From Pirellula staleyi DSM 6068 (GTDB lineage: Bacteria > Planctomycetota > Planctomycetia > Pirellulales > Pirellulaceae): a DNA stretch of 64,000 bases. Numbering within the stretch: the first letter of the stretch is position 1; each line of letters starts with the position of its first letter. This document shows, in pieces, positions 2,724-10,325 of the stretch. The stretch spans positions 1-64,000 of the forward strand of contig CAMDKL010000011.1 in assembly GCA_945900945.1 (NCBI GenBank), written 5' to 3'. Both the position numbers and the translations under genes were made by a program. The notes beneath the pieces were generated by a model. The model had not been told where the DNA came from and searched no databases. It saw only the letters and a list, made by a program, of their open reading frames with translations.

Positions 2724-3542
2724 CTATCGGGGCACGACGGGCATATTGGAATTTGCCAAGGCACCGTTGCCCAGGTTTTCTACTTGTGCAACATCCAATT
2801 TGACGACAAAATCGGGGCCAGGTTGCAAATAGAGAGGGCCATCTGCGGATTCCTGGATTGCGTGTAGGCCATGATGCCTGGTGAGTTCGAGCGTTGCTAA
2901 AAACATGGCAACCAGGGCACTTTTGTGCATGCCTACGTCGAATAAATCCTGCAACTCAACTCGGTTCGATTCTTGAACCCGCTCGTGAATGCGATGCATA
3001 TAAACGTGAATCGGCGTATCGTCGAATTGGATGTTGTGAAGAGGTGGTTTTTGACGAGCCTTTAGAATTCTGCCAAAAGCACTAACTAAGTCCCATATTT
3101 CCACCTTCGCGATAGGAAGCTCGTTCGCATCGATCCTTCGCGGCGGCAGATCACTTGCTAGACGAGAGTAGCGGAGCTGCCAACGGCGACTCTGCTCGTC
3201 GAGCAAACAGGCGGCGTCTCGGAATCGTTTGTATTGCACGAGGCGCTCGACCAGCTGTGGCATAGAAGGTTCTAGGCCAAGGGTTCCAAGATCGTTGGCG
3301 GATTCCGTGTCAGGAACAGGTAATACCGTCTTGGCTTTAAGTTCGATCAATTGACTGGTGATATCGATGAACTCGCCGACATCGTCCAAGTCCAAGGTCT
3401 CCAACACCTCTAAGTACTCCATGTACTGATGCGTGATCTTGGCGAGCGACAGTTCCTCCAACGGCAATTCTTCGCGGCGAACCAAATAGAACAGTAGCTC
3501 TAGCGGCCCGTAATAACAAGGTAGATCGACTCCAAAGACCAT
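2724..3542 (-). CDS. scpA: Segregation and condensation protein A (ScpA)
   Basis: A 272-residue kleisin subunit that bridges the SMC heads in the bacterial condensin complex. The N-terminal motif after the ATG at 3542, VDLPCYYGPLELLFYLVRR, is the typical ScpA opening, followed by FIDITSQLIELKAKTVLP. The C-terminal winged helix is represented by VGMHKSALVAMFLATLELTR. A TTG 12 bp upstream could also start the frame, but the ATG places the conserved motif normally. It starts 14 bp after the Omp85 barrel gene and is probably in its operon. Neither scpB nor smc is nearby. Confidence 0.92.
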   Translation of the reverse strand: MVFGVDLPCYYGPLELLFYLVRREELPLEELSLAKITHQYMEYLEVLETLDLDDVGEFIDITSQLIELKAKTVLPVPDTESANDLGTLGLEPSMPQLVERLVQYKRFRDAACLLDEQSRRWQLRYSRLASDLPPRRIDANELPIAKVEIWDLVSAFGRILKARQKPPLHNIQFDDTPIHVYMHRIHERVQESNRVELQDLFDVGMHKSALVAMFLATLELTRHHGLHAIQESADGPLYLQPGPDFVVKLDVAQVENLGNGALANSNMPVVPR

Positions 3543-3556
3543 GCATGGATCCAACG

Positions 3557-5143
3557 TTATCGCGTTAGCCCCATGGTAAACGAGAAGATTTGCCGACTGT
3601 CGGTGTCCGCGTACGAAACAGGGAACGCGAAGTCGAATGCGAGAGGAGCTGGGCCGAGAGCTGGAACGGCAATACGAGCTCCAAAGCCTGGCGCCACTCG
3701 GAAGTTCTTTGCGTTCAGTTCGATATCTTGCTCGATGGTACCATAGTCGACGAAGGCAACCATTCGCAGCATATCATCGGCCGTGATTGGGAGCATGTAT
3801 TCAAAAGTTCCGAGCATTTGGAATCGACCTCCCACCTGCGCACCGTTCTGAACCGGACTTGCACCGCGGAAAGCAAAACCACGCATGGTTGAGAAACCGC
3901 CCGCAAAGAAGTTTTCGAATATCGGGGTATCTTCGCCGGAGAAGCCTAGCCGCATCGAACTGGTAAAGGTATGTTTCCCGCCGCCGTCGGCACGTTCTCG
4001 AACTAGAAAGTACCGACTGAAATTGACCTGACCTCGCGGGTAATCGAATTCACCGAATGTCTGGTCGTATATCAATTCGATTAAGTGCCCTTCGGTCGGT
4101 AGGAACGGACTATCCCTGGTATTGTGAGCCAAACGAACGCGGCCGGTATACAGATCGTTGCTTCCCTCGACGCGATTCAGCGCTGGAACACCAGCGACAG
4201 CGATATTAGAAATGTTGACGTCCTCACCTCGCAGTTCCGTTGTCAAAGACAAATCCTGTGTAACTTCGTAGCCTATAGCCACACGACCGCCGAGTCGCTG
4301 TTCCGTCCAATCTTTGTAAATGCGGGTAAAGTAAAATCCGCCGACCGACAAACTGAACGGTGAGTATCCAAACAAGTTTGGCTCGGTCCAATTAAGTGTG
4401 TAACGTTGCACTCGATTTCCAGGCACCAGTTCGATCCGAAAGTTCTGGCCCGCACCTCGAAAAGCACCGTTAACCATATCACCGGGCCGGCGAGGGAAAT
4501 TTCGAATGTCGAAGTTGCGTTCCTCTAGAATGAAATTACCTGCGACACCTAAATCGCTGTTCACCGAACCGCCGACGGAAAACCGTCCAGTTTGGCCTTC
4601 TTGAACATACACGTCCACTGGGATGTCACGTATTTTCGGATTGTAGCCATAGGGTGAATTGTCCAAAAATGCTGAACTGGATCCCAATTGCCACGGCTCT
4701 TCCAAGGAGGGTGCTGTTTGAATCAGTGCGCCGGGCGGGGGGACTGGTTGATTGTTGTATGTTGGTGGAGCAATGGTCTGTTGATTGTTGTTGATCGTAC
4801 TAGGTTGTCCAAACATGGGCTGGCCTACGGTCTGCTGTCCGTTGATGACGGGAGCGTTGCCATAGTAAGGAACCGACGGACTTGGAATGGATTGATTTGG
4901 AATTGGCCCGCCCGAATACGATTGTCCGGAGCCATACGGGGCACCATTCGCATATCCCGGGGCAGGGCCGTTGACTGGTGCCGCATTACCTTCATAGGTG
5001 TAGCCATAACCCGGTCCAACCACTTGTCCATAACCCGGGCCAACCACTTGTCCGTGAATCGTAGAGCAAGTAGCCGCCCAAATGCCAATGGATGCAAACA
5101 ACAATGCGACAATGCAAATCCTTTGACGATCGCTTTGCTTCAT
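3557..5143 (-). CDS. Omp85/BamA-type beta-barrel domain as a separate protein
   Basis: About 528 residues from the ATG at 5143; an in-frame ATG at 5176 would add 11. A signal peptide (to about THGQ, near residue 32) is followed by roughly 110 residues rich in Gly, Pro, Gln and Asn, then by an Omp85 barrel. The barrel segment opens with IPVDVYVQEGQTGRFSVGG, which matches the last strand of a final POTRA domain plus the first barrel strand of BamA. Later FAGGFSTMRGFAFRGA carries the loop-6 motif (MRGF in place of VRGF), and the protein ends in an aromatic-rich strand. There are no POTRA domains; they are in the gene just upstream (5262-6653). A 24-bp direct repeat (5004-5051) encodes the duplicated QVVGPGYG. 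It probably inserts outer-membrane proteins with its partner. Confidence 0.85.
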   Translation of the reverse strand: MKQSDRQRICIVALLFASIGIWAATCSTIHGQVVGPGYGQVVGPGYGYTYEGNAAPVNGPAPGYANGAPYGSGQSYSGGPIPNQSIPSPSVPYYGNAPVINGQQTVGQPMFGQPSTINNNQQTIAPPTYNNQPVPPPGALIQTAPSLEEPWQLGSSSAFLDNSPYGYNPKIRDIPVDVYVQEGQTGRFSVGGSVNSDLGVAGNFILEERNFDIRNFPRRPGDMVNGAFRGAGQNFRIELVPGNRVQRYTLNWTEPNLFGYSPFSLSVGGFYFTRIYKDWTEQRLGGRVAIGYEVTQDLSLTTELRGEDVNISNIAVAGVPALNRVEGSNDLYTGRVRLAHNTRDSPFLPTEGHLIELIYDQTFGEFDYPRGQVNFSRYFLVRERADGGGKHTFTSSMRLGFSGEDTPIFENFFAGGFSTMRGFAFRGASPVQNGAQVGGRFQMLGTFEYMLPITADDMLRMVAFVDYGTIEQDIELNAKNFRVAPGFGARIAVPALGPAPLAFDFAFPVSYADTDSRQIFSFTMGLTR

Positions 5144-5261
5144 GGCAGGTTTGTCTTGATTGATAGGGATTGGCATAATGGGATTAAAAACGACGGTTGG
5201 TTTCGTCCAGGAGGCTCACAATTGGAACGAGCTTTACAAGTAAGTCATGTTATTTAGCATG

Positions 5262-6653
5262 CTAACGATTGGAGCCAAATTCCTGATCTACGCCCGCCGG
5301 CGGCTCAATTCGAATGTTAGGGACGGTCCCTTGACTCGGGTCATTGTTGAAGATGTTGAGGTACTTAAGACGCCGTTCTGCGTTATCGATTTCAGGACCG
5401 TTTGCGATACTTCCAGGGCGGATCTTGCCAAGTGGCTGCATCACAACACGTTCCTTGGTATGGTCACCATCGATATGAACGCGGACTTCGCTCACCCGAT
5501 AAACGTCTCCTTCGCCGACGTTGTAGACGACATCCACTTCGCTGTTGGGTTGATAGACGAGCTCGCCGATGACCTCGCTGAAGATATGTCCTTGGGCGCC
5601 ATAGACGTCTCTCAAAAACTTTTCATCATGCAGTTTGTTGGGTTGCAAGAAGGAGTCGCCAGCCTTTAATTTCATGTATGGCAGTAGTTCGCTTGGCTGA
5701 TATCGCTTTGTACCCACGATAGAAACCGACTTGATCTTGTAGCGCTGTCCTTCCGACACGACGAATGTCAAATCAATGAAATCGCCGCTGGTGTTGTAGT
5801 CTTTTCGATACTCGACTCGAGCGTCAAAGTAACCTAAGGTTCGGTAGTATCCCATGAGTGCGTCCCGATCGGCTTCCATCTTGAGGTCAGAGGCTTTATT
5901 GAACATATACGACCTAATTCCACCCAAAGCATCTCGGCTACTAATTTTGGTCTTTAAGATATCTGTCGTGAACGCATGGTTACCGATAAATCGAATCTTG
6001 TTGAGTCTTTCGACAGGGCCCTCGTTTACAAGGAACTCGACTTCGCGTTGACCTGGCTTGAGTCCTTGAATGATCTGAATATCGATCTGATTCATGCCCT
6101 TGTCCTGGTACAGTTCGATCAATCGAGACTTGGCGGAATTGATTGAGATTGGGTCCAATGGGTCTCCTTTTTGGATGCCAGCATGTTTGCTTAGCTGACT
6201 GTCGTCGATGTGTTGGTTGCCTCTAAAGAAGACCGCCTTTATGATCGGTCGCTCGTCCACGATTAGGCGGATGTGAACTCCACCCTGGCTTTCCGTAAAG
6301 TAGGGTGTAATCTTTTTGAAGAGATTGGTTCGATAAAGCGTGCTGATATCCCGATTGAAAGTTTCCTTGTCGAACGTTCGGTCCTCTCGCGACTGCATGG
6401 TCGAGAGGATAAAGTTCTGAGAGATACTGCTGTTTCCCTCGATGTTCACCGACAAAATAATCGCGCCCTCCTTGGCCTCTCGACCCTGCGGTCCCCCGGC
6501 TTCGTAGAGTTTATCGCTAAACTTTGGATCCATGAACGCGGGAGCACCGCCGCCAGGTGCACCGCCGCCCATCTGCCCAAAAACCACCGAACCATTGAGG
6601 ACCATCGTTGCAGGAATGACGATCCGAATCATCATTGCTCTTTTTGAGATCAT
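5262..6653 (-). CDS. Periplasmic POTRA-domain protein, N-terminal half of a divided BamA
   Basis: A 463-residue exported protein. After a signal peptide and a short Gly/Pro/Ala stretch come five POTRA units, starting at IILSVNIEGNSSISQ (about residue 66), IIKAVFFRGNQHIDD, LNKIRFIGNHAFTTD, IKSVSIVGTKRYQPSELL and VSEVRVHIDGDHTKERV. In BamA, five POTRAs lead directly into the barrel. Here the chain stops after PNIRIEPPAGVDQEFGSNR, which is the penultimate strand of POTRA5. The missing last strand and the barrel are encoded by the next gene, 85 bp downstream with its own signal peptide. The two proteins would have to assemble by completing POTRA5 or through other contacts. Family membership is clear; that the pair acts as BamA is inference. 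Confidence 0.87.
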   Translation of the reverse strand: MISKRAMMIRIVIPATMVLNGSVVFGQMGGGAPGGGAPAFMDPKFSDKLYEAGGPQGREAKEGAIILSVNIEGNSSISQNFILSTMQSREDRTFDKETFNRDISTLYRTNLFKKITPYFTESQGGVHIRLIVDERPIIKAVFFRGNQHIDDSQLSKHAGIQKGDPLDPISINSAKSRLIELYQDKGMNQIDIQIIQGLKPGQREVEFLVNEGPVERLNKIRFIGNHAFTTDILKTKISSRDALGGIRSYMFNKASDLKMEADRDALMGYYRTLGYFDARVEYRKDYNTSGDFIDLTFVVSEGQRYKIKSVSIVGTKRYQPSELLPYMKLKAGDSFLQPNKLHDEKFLRDVYGAQGHIFSEVIGELVYQPNSEVDVVYNVGEGDVYRVSEVRVHIDGDHTKERVVMQPLGKIRPGSIANGPEIDNAERRLKYLNIFNNDPSQGTVPNIRIEPPAGVDQEFGSNR

Positions 6654-6857
6654 GCGTAGCCTATCAAAGGGTCGGGAATGGACAGTGACTCCCTCATTGA
6701 ATACACAAAAGAACTTTCACAGAGCAACCTCAGCCCTACAGGACTTTAGTTATTTAAGAGATTTTTGATTAGAATGCAGTATTCATTGTCGCACGAAGTA
6801 ACCTGCTTGCCCTTCCAAGCCCCCTTATCCCTCCCAAATTCAAGATTTGAGTCTGCC

Positions 6858-9800
6858 ATGAAAGCTCGCAAAGACTTGGTGCTTTGGTTTATTGTCCTCT
6901 CGACGGCACTATGCGTAAATTCTTTTTCAGCCGATCCGCTGCGTTCGGATCGCTTCACGCCAGCCGAGCCAAGCACATTGCAGGAGCTTTTCGGTCAGAC
7001 CATTCGAGCATCCTCACATAGAACTCCAGCAGAAGAGCTTGCTGGTTTGCACGTTCCGGAAGGCTTTCAGGTCGACTTGATCGCAGCGGAACCGACGATA
7101 GCAAAACCAATGAACATGGCTTTCGACGCCGCTGGGCGACTTTGGATTACCCAGTCGACCCAATATCCGTTTCCTGCCAAACTCGGCCAAAAAGGTTCGG
7201 ACGCAGTCGTGGTCCTCGAAGACAACGACCATGACGGAAGCTTCGAAACGCAGCGAGTCTTTGCCGACGGGCTGAATATACCGATCGGTTTGTTGCCCTA
7301 CGGCGATGGAGTTTTGTGCTTTTCGATTCCGAATATCCTCTATCTGCGAGATACCGATCAAGACGGCATTTGCGATACGCGTGAAGTATTACTTGGGCCA
7401 TTCGATACAACTCGCGACACGCATGGAATGATCAATTCTCTGCGGATGGGAACTGACGGTTGGGCCTATGCATGCCATGGTTTCAATAACCAATCGCAAA
7501 TTCAGGGTAAAGATGGACACGCAATCTCGATGACCTCGGGAAACGTATTCCGGTTCAGGCCCGATGGTTCAAGAGTAGAGCTATACACGCAAGGGCAAGT
7601 GAATCCATTCGGAATGGCACAAGACCGTTGGGGTTTTTGGTACGCCGCCGATTGTCATAGCAAACCGATCTCCCAGTTGATTCGAGGCGGTTGCTACCCG
7701 AGCTTTGGCCGACCAGATGACGGGCTCGGTTTCGTACCACCGATGATGGATCACTTGCATGGAAGCACTGCGATCTCTGGGTTGGCTCACACCAAGGACT
7801 CTCGATTCCCGCTAGCAATGGAAGATAACTTCCTCAGTGGCAACGTTATGACATGCCGCATCAATCGAAATCAATTGACTTACCAAGGAGCCACGGCCAA
7901 GGCAATCGCGATGCCGGATCTATTGACCAGCGACGATCCATGGTTCCGCCCAGTTGACTTGCAGTTTGGACCGGACGGCTGTTTGTATGTTGCCGATTTT
8001 TACAATAAAATCATTGGTCACTACGAAGTACCGCTCGATCATCCCGATCGCGACAGGACGAGTGGACGCATCTGGCGTATCCGATGGAAAGGGGCCGAGG
8101 CAACCATCGTTCCCTCCAAAGCTAACGAGTTGGCGGACAGGGTCTCGAAACTGCGAAGCTCTTTAAACGAACTGTCCGCTACCGATCCGAAAGTAGCGAG
8201 GATGGCCGAATCGCTCAATCTTGAAATCGTCGCCGAAGCAATGCTCGCAAAGAGCATCGTAGAGTTGATGGGGATCAGCGGCAACGAAAGTGAAGCAAAT
8301 TGGCTACTCAGCCAAACACGCCGCTCGGATATCAATAGGGATCCCGTGCTTTTTCAAATGTTGTTGATATCTTTCAGGGATATCGCGATTCGAATTCGGG
8401 ACACGGAGCCGGAGCAGTTTAGTCGATGGTTGTCACAGTTGTGCAACGCAGGTAGTTTAGCGAGGACGACTGGTCCAACTGCGATTGCATTTGATACAAT
8501 TGAAATGCAGGCACTAGCACGTGTATTGCTTGCTCTCAAAGATCCTCGTTCCGTTGCTGGCGTTCTTACTCTCTGCGAAAAACTCGCGTCCATTTCTGAT
8601 TCGACGGTTGTTCAACGTCGTATCATGGGCGAAACCATTCAGTCGATTGCGGACGTTGTTGACGACTCCAACATGGATCGTTTGATTTCACTTTTGGATT
8701 CGACCAGCAAGGATTCGGATGTTCAGGCAGACCAACTGCTTCGAATCGCTCAACGCCAAATGCAGCAACGCGGAAAAGTACTTGGCAGCTTGATTTTGCA
8801 GTGCCAAAATTCGGTCGGAGATCTTGCGGGCAGATGGCTGGCCGAGGCAGAGGCATTTTCGAACAGTGCGGGAAAAGACCAACTGATCAGTTGGTTCGGT
8901 AGATCGACGAAAGGCGACGATCGGAGGGACTGGTTGCCAGAAAAAAGGGAATTGACCCATGGCCAAAATGGCATTGTCAAGCGTGGCTTGTTTTTTAGTA
9001 GTTTTAAGTTGGGTGAGAGTTATTCCGGCACGTGGTCGTCGAGCCCATTCATTGCAAAGGGCAAACTTGATTTTTATGTCGTTGGCCACAATGGATTGCC
9101 CAGTAAAGAAGCCGTACGCAAGAACTATGTTTCCTTGGTCCGACTCGACGAGGCTGGCAATGTTGCTGAAGAACTCTTTCGTGTGTTTCCACCGCGAAGC
9201 GACATCGGCCAAACGGTTCATTGGGATTTGCAAAAGTTTGCGGATGCAACGATTCAGATCCGTGTCGTGGATGGTGACTCGGGCGCAAGTTACGCGTGGA
9301 TCGGCATTGGCGAAAGTTCCATGGCTGGCATGAATCCTGGCTCGCTTCGGGATCAGTGGGAGCGCATTGTATCGGTTGTGGCGTTATGTGGACTTCCCTC
9401 GCAACCGGAGAGTCTTGAAAAATTTTCGAAACTGTTGCGCTCGGAAAGTGTGGATTGGACAAGCCGATTTCGGCTGCACCGACTTCGCAACAAAAATGCG
9501 TTTACAGAGTGCATTGAGTTGACTGATTTCGCGGTTGAGCAGAACTGGACTGACCTATTAGTTTTGCTCGGTATTAGCGTAGGAACGACACCCGCTTGGG
9601 ACTGGGGTTCGATCGAGCCAGAAGGGCTCTTTAAGTTTGGTGATGCAATTTGCAAACGTTGTTCGCATCAAGAACAGGAACGATTGGTGGTGAGGCTTTC
9701 GAAGCATCGGTCAGCCATTAACATGATTGCTTCGCTATGCGAGCGAGGTTCCTTGTCTCGCGAATCGTTGCGGGTGTTGCCCAAGAGTTGGTGGGAAGGA

Positions 9801-10325
9801 TTGCCGCAAGATAGCGTAGCCAAGCTCGAAACGCTCCGTCCCGAACCAAGTGCGACGTCGAACCGACTGGCTGTTGTGGATAGCAAAGCGTCGGTGATCG
9901 AAAGTCTTGCTGTCGATATACAAGTAGGAGCTAAGCAGTTTGTAGATCGATGTGCATTGTGTCACAAACTCGGTGATCAAGGGAAAGTATTGGGCCCTCA
10001 ATTGGAAGGGGTTGGTGCCAGAGGCAATTCGAGGCTTTGTGAAGATATTCTATGGCCCGATCGGAATGTTGATGAGGCGTTTCGAATGACGATGTTGCTG
10101 CTCGATGGCGGAGAATCGGTAAACGGGCTGGTTAGTGACCGAAATTCGGAGTCCTTGTTATTAACCGATCCAACAGGAAAACAACGACGAATTTTGCTCA
10201 GCGACATTGAGTACGAGAAACAGAGCAAACTTTCGTTGATGCCTGGAAATTTTGATGAGTTGATGACCGATTCTGAATTGGCATCGTTGATCGGCTATTT
10301 GCGAAACGCAGCACAAACCAAATAG
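6858..10325 (+). CDS. PVC-type haem-binding membrane-bound dehydrogenase
   Basis: An 1155-residue exported protein from the ATG at 6858, which directly precedes the signal peptide (MKARKDLVLWFIVLSTALCV). The N-terminal half is a propeller-like dehydrogenase domain starting at LHVPEGFQVDLIAAEPTIAKP, with GRLWITQSTQYPF and FGPDGCLYVADFYNKIIGH, as in the planctomycete membrane-bound dehydrogenase family. The middle has helical repeats and then a beta-rich region (about residues 700-830). Near the C-terminus is a cytochrome c module with a CALCH haem site and a distal methionine region. The family occurs widely in planctomycetes as putative sugar or alcohol oxidases; the substrate is unknown. It stands alone, divergent from the POTRA gene. 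Confidence 0.88.
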   Translation: MKARKDLVLWFIVLSTALCVNSFSADPLRSDRFTPAEPSTLQELFGQTIRASSHRTPAEELAGLHVPEGFQVDLIAAEPTIAKPMNMAFDAAGRLWITQSTQYPFPAKLGQKGSDAVVVLEDNDHDGSFETQRVFADGLNIPIGLLPYGDGVLCFSIPNILYLRDTDQDGICDTREVLLGPFDTTRDTHGMINSLRMGTDGWAYACHGFNNQSQIQGKDGHAISMTSGNVFRFRPDGSRVELYTQGQVNPFGMAQDRWGFWYAADCHSKPISQLIRGGCYPSFGRPDDGLGFVPPMMDHLHGSTAISGLAHTKDSRFPLAMEDNFLSGNVMTCRINRNQLTYQGATAKAIAMPDLLTSDDPWFRPVDLQFGPDGCLYVADFYNKIIGHYEVPLDHPDRDRTSGRIWRIRWKGAEATIVPSKANELADRVSKLRSSLNELSATDPKVARMAESLNLEIVAEAMLAKSIVELMGISGNESEANWLLSQTRRSDINRDPVLFQMLLISFRDIAIRIRDTEPEQFSRWLSQLCNAGSLARTTGPTAIAFDTIEMQALARVLLALKDPRSVAGVLTLCEKLASISDSTVVQRRIMGETIQSIADVVDDSNMDRLISLLDSTSKDSDVQADQLLRIAQRQMQQRGKVLGSLILQCQNSVGDLAGRWLAEAEAFSNSAGKDQLISWFGRSTKGDDRRDWLPEKRELTHGQNGIVKRGLFFSSFKLGESYSGTWSSSPFIAKGKLDFYVVGHNGLPSKEAVRKNYVSLVRLDEAGNVAEELFRVFPPRSDIGQTVHWDLQKFADATIQIRVVDGDSGASYAWIGIGESSMAGMNPGSLRDQWERIVSVVALCGLPSQPESLEKFSKLLRSESVDWTSRFRLHRLRNKNAFTECIELTDFAVEQNWTDLLVLLGISVGTTPAWDWGSIEPEGLFKFGDAICKRCSHQEQERLVVRLSKHRSAINMIASLCERGSLSRESLRVLPKSWWEGLPQDSVAKLETLRPEPSATSNRLAVVDSKASVIESLAVDIQVGAKQFVDRCALCHKLGDQGKVLGPQLEGVGARGNSRLCEDILWPDRNVDEAFRMTMLLLDGGESVNGLVSDRNSESLLLTDPTGKQRRILLSDIEYEKQSKLSLMPGNFDELMTDSELASLIGYLRNAAQTK

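Follow-up and report, generated by a model that had tools for sequence, protein, structure and literature searches.

Two adjacent genes share the domains of one BamA

The window, that is the whole 64,000-nucleotide stretch of DNA analysed, carries two neighboring open reading frames on its minus strand, with the gene for a POTRA protein upstream of the gene for a barrel protein. Pfam recognises four POTRA domains (PF07244) in the former and an Omp85 domain (PF01103, matched over 2 to 324 of 325 positions) in the latter. The NCBIfam BamA profile TIGR03303 (741 positions) is divided likewise: positions 2 to 372 are matched by the POTRA protein and 387 to 738 by the barrel protein, with 214.0 and 134.9 bits, respectively, when each is scored singly (the single-chain cut-off is 297). 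POTRAs and barrel thus belong to two open reading frames 85 bp apart, which does not meet the criterion that BamA be one polypeptide. Because these lie in different reading frames, the pair is a two-chain variant and not an ordinary BamA. The features of the locus are as follows.

5262 to 6653, minus strand: POTRA half of the split BamA, 463 aa (open reading frame list, Pfam, TIGR03303, AlphaFold2 model, superposition)
6576 to 6653, minus strand: signal peptide of the POTRA half, MISKRAMMIRIVIPATMVLNGSVVFG (read from the sequence)
6252 to 6461, minus strand: POTRA1, residues 65-134 (AlphaFold2, three strands and two helices; PF07244)
6024 to 6236, minus strand: POTRA2, residues 140-210 (Pfam, AlphaFold2 model)
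5754 to 6008, minus strand: POTRA3, residues 216-300 (Pfam, AlphaFold2 model)
5514 to 5738, minus strand: POTRA4, residues 306-380 (Pfam, AlphaFold2 model)
5304 to 5501, minus strand: incomplete POTRA5, residues 385-450, with strands 1 and 2 and two helices but no strand 3 (AlphaFold2 model, superposition)
5177 to 5261, no strand: intergenic gap of 85 bp (frame change and further stops inside)
3557 to 5176, minus strand: barrel half of the split BamA, 539 aa (open reading frame list, Pfam, TIGR03303)
5048 to 5176, minus strand: second signal peptide, residues 1-43 (hydrophobicity 2.75, basic n-region; a start at M12 is possible)
4637 to 5047, minus strand: linker of ~140 residues rich in Gly, Pro, Gln and Asn (from its sequence; equivalent of the disordered insertion in single-chain relatives)
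4592 to 4624, minus strand: POTRA5 strand 3, I185-Q195, IPVDVYVQEGQ (TIGR03303 from position 387, alternating hydrophobics, covariation with POTRA5)
3560 to 4585, minus strand: Omp85 barrel, residues 198-539 (PF01103, E 2.5e-43)
3875 to 3886, minus strand: MRGF loop-6 motif (from its sequence)

The barrel protein has a poor lipobox, and its signal looks like an ordinary signal peptide. The features expected of a 16-stranded Omp85 barrel with an RGF loop-6 motif are met, as judged from the PF01103 match, the MRGF motif and the fold match of a single-chain relative (Z 28).

The initial annotation, made from sequence alone, had placed two open reading frames at these coordinates and given the downstream one its own signal peptide, the final strand of POTRA5 and an MRGF barrel; all of this held, and the profile assignment it had proposed as a check shares the BamA profile and the Pfam domains out between the two proteins. 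Of the five POTRA units that it had assigned to the upstream gene, four are complete and POTRA5 is without strand 3. Its estimate of about 110 residues for the linker failed. The scpA gene that it had noted 14 bp further on was confirmed (PF02616, window 2724 to 3554, minus strand), with an in-frame ATG at 3542, 14 bp downstream of the barrel gene. By tblastn, scpA was not recognised next to bamA in the loci of named relatives, and no conserved neighborhood was detectable there. On the other side lies a divergently transcribed DUF7133 gene (PF23500, window 6765 to 10325, plus strand) with a cytochrome c match at its C-terminus.

The cut falls in the POTRA5 strand 2 to strand 3 hairpin

AlphaFold2 was run on the POTRA protein by itself (463 aa), giving a mean pLDDT of 87.7. 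POTRA1 to POTRA4 each comprise three strands and two helices. In POTRA5 the two helices are accompanied only by strand 1 (385-394) and strand 2 (446-450); there is no third strand, and only 13 residues follow strand 2. When the model is superposed on E. coli BamA, the match stops at BamA residue 409-410.

A natural single-chain relative, Bythopirellula polymerisocia BamA, indicates where the missing strand is to be sought. In its AlphaFold2 model, POTRA5 strand 2 lies at 395-399, most of residues 405-613 is low-confidence disorder (a loop of ~200 residues), and strand 3, predicted with pLDDT over 90, occupies 634-643 immediately ahead of the barrel. In the superposition with E. coli BamA, this barrel is matched from residue 423 onward. 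By the offset from that superposition, POTRA5 strand 3 corresponds to approximately residues 411-420 of E. coli BamA, and its equivalent in the window is IPVDVYVQEG of the barrel protein. Since the POTRA model ends at 409-410 and the barrel-side strand takes up at ~411, the cut corresponds to the hairpin between POTRA5 strands 2 and 3. The criterion of five POTRAs is thereby met with four complete domains and a fifth divided between the two chains, this sharing being predicted without a model of the complex.

POTRA5 covaries with the strand on the barrel chain

The barrel-side strand is ungapped in all 70 split barrels of our first set and carries hydrophobic residues at the alternate positions 5, 7, 9 and 11 in 84-100% of them. 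Couplings between the two proteins were computed as mutual information (~81 effective sequences). H393 in POTRA5 strand 1 and Y190 in the barrel-side strand rank first among 146,472 inter-protein pairs in the 70 split pairs, 18th in 44 further pairs less than 90% identical to the first set, and first of 146,472 in all 137 split pairs. On a tree from which POTRA5 and the strand had been left out, about 12 independent changes were found at these two positions, about 7 of them going the same way and none the opposite way (p ~0.016), the pair having been picked after its ranking was known.

The couplings run parallel to POTRA5 strand 1 (391-188, 393-190, 395-192) and antiparallel to POTRA5 strand 2 (442-193, 446-190, 449-185), and the identical rule holds in cis between strands 1 and 3 and strands 2 and 3 of POTRA1 to POTRA4 of the same proteins. 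The trans z-score is 10-11, whereas POTRA5 strand 1 reaches no more than 4.8 with any other stretch of the barrel. The signal is weaker in 80 single-chain pairs alone (H393 and Y190, rank 890; 391-188, rank 44). The covariation itself is shown, and it is the pattern expected if POTRA5 is assembled from two chains; no complex was modelled and there are no experimental data.

The pair is the only recognisable BamA of the genome

We performed profile searches of the genome, which is 99.96% complete. The window barrel gene is its single Omp85 match and POTRA repeats are confined to the window POTRA gene, so the pair is the cell's only recognisable BamA. TamB gave no match in the genome, although control searches did match. 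TamA, defined by three POTRAs and a TamB partner, is thus not what the pair encodes, with its five POTRAs and no TamB. A search with TIGR03302 for BamD gave just weak TPR matches in the genome. The ShlB/FhaC search gave no matches, but its positive controls gave none either.

Weak second Omp85-like matches (25-43 bits) occur in some Pirellulaceae (G178:C76, G153:C1:5046488, G164:C155, G159:C11, G166:C330); none is present in the window genome.

The split is conserved throughout the family

The family of the window is Pirellulaceae, as judged from identical or near-identical loci of Rhodopirellula sp. NAT69, Blastopirellula sp. NORP48 and Pirellulaceae bacterium KatS3mg111. An Omp85 match above the curated cut-off was found in 113 of its 119 genomes. 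Among family matches that, like the window barrel, score above 100 bits, the frames do not exceed 718 aa, whereas Omp85 frames in the rest of the phylum are mostly 780-1500 aa. The split, in each case with the POTRA gene immediately preceding the barrel gene in the same orientation, was observed at all 107 readable Pirellulaceae-type loci (40 including the window, plus 67; only loci with enough flanking sequence were counted, one per genome). It is found in a closed genome of the window's genus (L089), in four further families of the order (f57, f58, f59, f63), and in one genome of family f2 (L154), with which two split loci from named MAGs group (L182 and L187). The spacing of the two genes ranges from a 4-bp overlap to ~160 bp. 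A signal segment with hydrophobicity above 1.8 is present in 63 of 70 split barrel proteins, many of which end this segment in a lipobox, compared with 2 of 83 single-chain insertions. The f2 locus was considered as a possible frameshift, its first start codon being without a signal peptide; this was rejected, as a scan found a signal with a WTGC lipobox.

These results bear on the remaining claims of the initial annotation. Its view that both genes are intact held, the same arrangement being found in a closed genome and in 107/107 family loci; the Pirellulaceae survey that it had suggested thus found the split, and found it more widely than could then be known. The cut inside POTRA5, with the upstream protein ending at the penultimate strand, also held, by AlphaFold2 and by superposition on E. 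coli BamA. Neither observation that it had named as a refutation was made: there is no full-length single-chain BamA elsewhere in the 99.96% complete genome, and POTRA5 is not complete without the barrel protein, its strand 3 being absent from the predicted POTRA protein. The proposed completion of the POTRA fold in trans is supported by the covariation and the single-chain model, the complex itself remaining unmodelled.

A disordered insertion occupies the same hairpin in single-chain relatives

In single-chain BamA proteins of the same class (Lacipirellulaceae, Gimesia, Thermoguttaceae and others), the same POTRA5 hairpin is interrupted by an insertion spanning 52-452 residues (median 233); this hairpin is tight (~10-17 residues) in the outgroup classes of the phylum. 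The insertion starts with RGQSP or RGQN in 75 of 83 single-chain sequences, and RGQSP is kept in the C-terminal tail of 42 of 70 split POTRA proteins. The break is therefore placed inside the old insertion. A strand-like stretch follows RGQSP in most single-chain insertions and in 17 of 70 split POTRA tails (for example LDIDVYVDP and VIDLVLEGEL), and in none of the tails of the window protein and its same-genus relatives. In the one single-chain model, this stretch is not predicted as a strand.

The longer motif RGQSP[DE] is conserved in the insertions L129-L167 and in split tails such as L102, L118 and L093, and is absent from the window's genus; Gimesia-type genomes have RGQN repeats in its place. 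The stretch behind it resembles the last strand of POTRA5 and could possibly be a duplicated strand 3. In seven genomes, counts of RGQSPD in other proteins barely exceed a reversed control, so there is no sign of wider use of the motif.

In a gene tree of 83 sequences, the split Pirellulaceae form one clade (SH-aLRT 99) and single-chain and split forms interchange five times, at least four of these on well-supported branches. A larger FastTree tree also gives five changes, at least three well supported. We infer that fission occurred more than once and, from the tree, that insertion preceded fission; these are gene trees only and transfer is possible. Refusion as the origin of the single chains was considered and rejected, the insertions being without a convincing signal-peptide remnant; their hydrophobic stretches are mostly strand-like and located after RGQSP.

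A two-chain BamA and the alternatives

We consider it likely (probability of about 0.85) that the two genes encode BamA as two chains, with POTRA5 completed in trans. The split gene structure, its single copy and its conservation are shown, as are the insertion site and the predicted absence of strand 3 from the POTRA protein; physical association of the chains, strand insertion in trans and BamA function are inferred, and the capacity to insert barrel proteins in the outer membrane is deduced from the family the proteins belong to. In the proposed mechanism, the POTRA protein would be exported as a soluble periplasmic array with a fifth domain short of its last strand, and the barrel protein would be exported by its own signal and insert as an Omp85 barrel. 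The barrel chain would then offer the missing strand directly before barrel strand 1, to pack between POTRA5 strands 1 and 2, and the domain thus completed would hold the array noncovalently at the barrel's periplasmic rim. As to origin, this class of Planctomycetota may first have gained a long disordered loop in the POTRA5 strand 2 to strand 3 hairpin. Repeated breaks of the gene inside the loop may have followed, with every barrel half acquiring a signal peptide, mostly of the lipoprotein type.

The closest alternative is that BamA is formed but the POTRA protein closes POTRA5 in cis, leaving the barrel-side strand as a docking element or a leftover. The strand-like stretch after RGQSP in some split tails and most single-chain insertions speaks for it. 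We regard it as unlikely, since the POTRA proteins of the window and its same-genus relatives are without such a stretch, the AlphaFold2 model shows no third strand, and covariation in the split set aligns strands 1 and 2 of POTRA5 in register with the strand of the barrel chain. The two halves might instead act apart, with the barrel working as a POTRA-less Omp85 and the POTRA protein paired to something else; Omp85 proteins lacking N-terminal domains are indeed known (the noNterm subfamily, PMC4104836). Against this stand the invariable adjacency and order of the genes, the lack of a second Omp85 in the genome, the preservation of the POTRA5 strand on the barrel and the inter-protein covariation, which together make it very improbable.

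That the locus is merely a broken bamA, through a frameshift, pseudogene formation or an assembly error, is all but excluded. Nothing specific favors it, except that the window contig comes from a draft genome, and it is opposed by the different frames and the second signal peptide. Chance and assembly error are ruled out because the arrangement recurs in closed genomes and at every readable family locus.

A bolder extension of the two-chain reading is that BamA underwent several fissions in one order of Planctomycetota, enabled by the disordered POTRA5 loop, making the POTRA array an exchangeable subunit that docks by strand complementation on an often lipid-anchored barrel. Taken jointly, these propositions remain tentative, and we would not yet favor them.

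Comparison with known systems

The E. coli and Neisseria BamA (YaeT/Omp85, TIGR03303) resemble the window pair in having five POTRAs in order, an RGF loop-6 barrel and POTRA5 strand 3 directly before barrel strand 1, and in being the sole Omp85 of the cell. The window differs in its two polypeptides, two signal peptides, open POTRA5 hairpin and barrel-chain linker. The single-chain BamA proteins of Lacipirellulaceae, Gimesia and Thermoguttaceae (L173, L190, L236, L185) have the same domains and the disordered insertion at the same hairpin, but remain one chain without a second signal peptide. The noNterm Omp85 proteins (Heinz and Lithgow 2014, PMC4104836), like the window barrel, lack complete POTRA domains. 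However, they are defined by having no N-terminal domain and no POTRA, which the window barrel does not satisfy, as it bears POTRA5 strand 3 and is preceded by a POTRA partner gene of its own. Many split barrel chains of the family share a lipoprotein-type signal with the Bacteroidetes Omp85 lipoproteins (TamL/Lipo subfamily), but in TamL it is the chain with the POTRAs that is lipidated, whereas in the split pairs it would be the barrel chain. In chaperone-usher pili, donor-strand complementation finishes an incomplete fold with a strand from another chain. Split BamA would differ in having a permanent partner and a homologous native strand, and fold and function are unrelated.

A 2012 survey (PMC3422733) listed BamA, on the basis of BLAST hits, in Pirellula, Blastopirellula and Rhodopirellula; its relevant passages do not mention a two-gene BamA, and the words POTRA and split are absent. 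The Omp85 classification paper (PMC4104836) defines a class of POTRA-less barrels without mentioning Planctomycetes. No report of a split BamA or Omp85, or of BamA with Pirellulaceae, was found in the open-access literature searched, which leaves out subscription journals and preprints. Within that scope, BamA itself is known and its two-chain form is apparently a new variant. Because surveys such as PMC3422733 list BamA without noting its two pieces, correct gene annotation is needed.

BamA is essential in diderm bacteria, where it builds the barrel proteins of the outer membrane, and it is treated as one chain whose POTRA array and barrel move together. If the inferred two-chain complex exists, a whole family has kept a natural BamA in which the covalent POTRA-barrel linkage is dispensable, and the machine is open to study as two detachable parts. 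One could then ask what purpose the coupling of POTRA5 to the barrel serves and whether the array is able to come off. Such a BamA would also illustrate a route by which a disordered hairpin insertion lets a domain be completed in trans, such completion being inferred here.

Two loci depart from the simple gene pair. Genome G284 carries two complete split POTRA/barrel pairs (L139 and L140). In genome G245, two barrel genes stand in tandem behind a single POTRA gene (L116; L116_2, L116_3, L116_4), and in the second barrel TPTQR replaces the otherwise invariant TG behind the POTRA5 strand. Because a single POTRA gene there precedes two different barrel genes, one array might serve two barrels.
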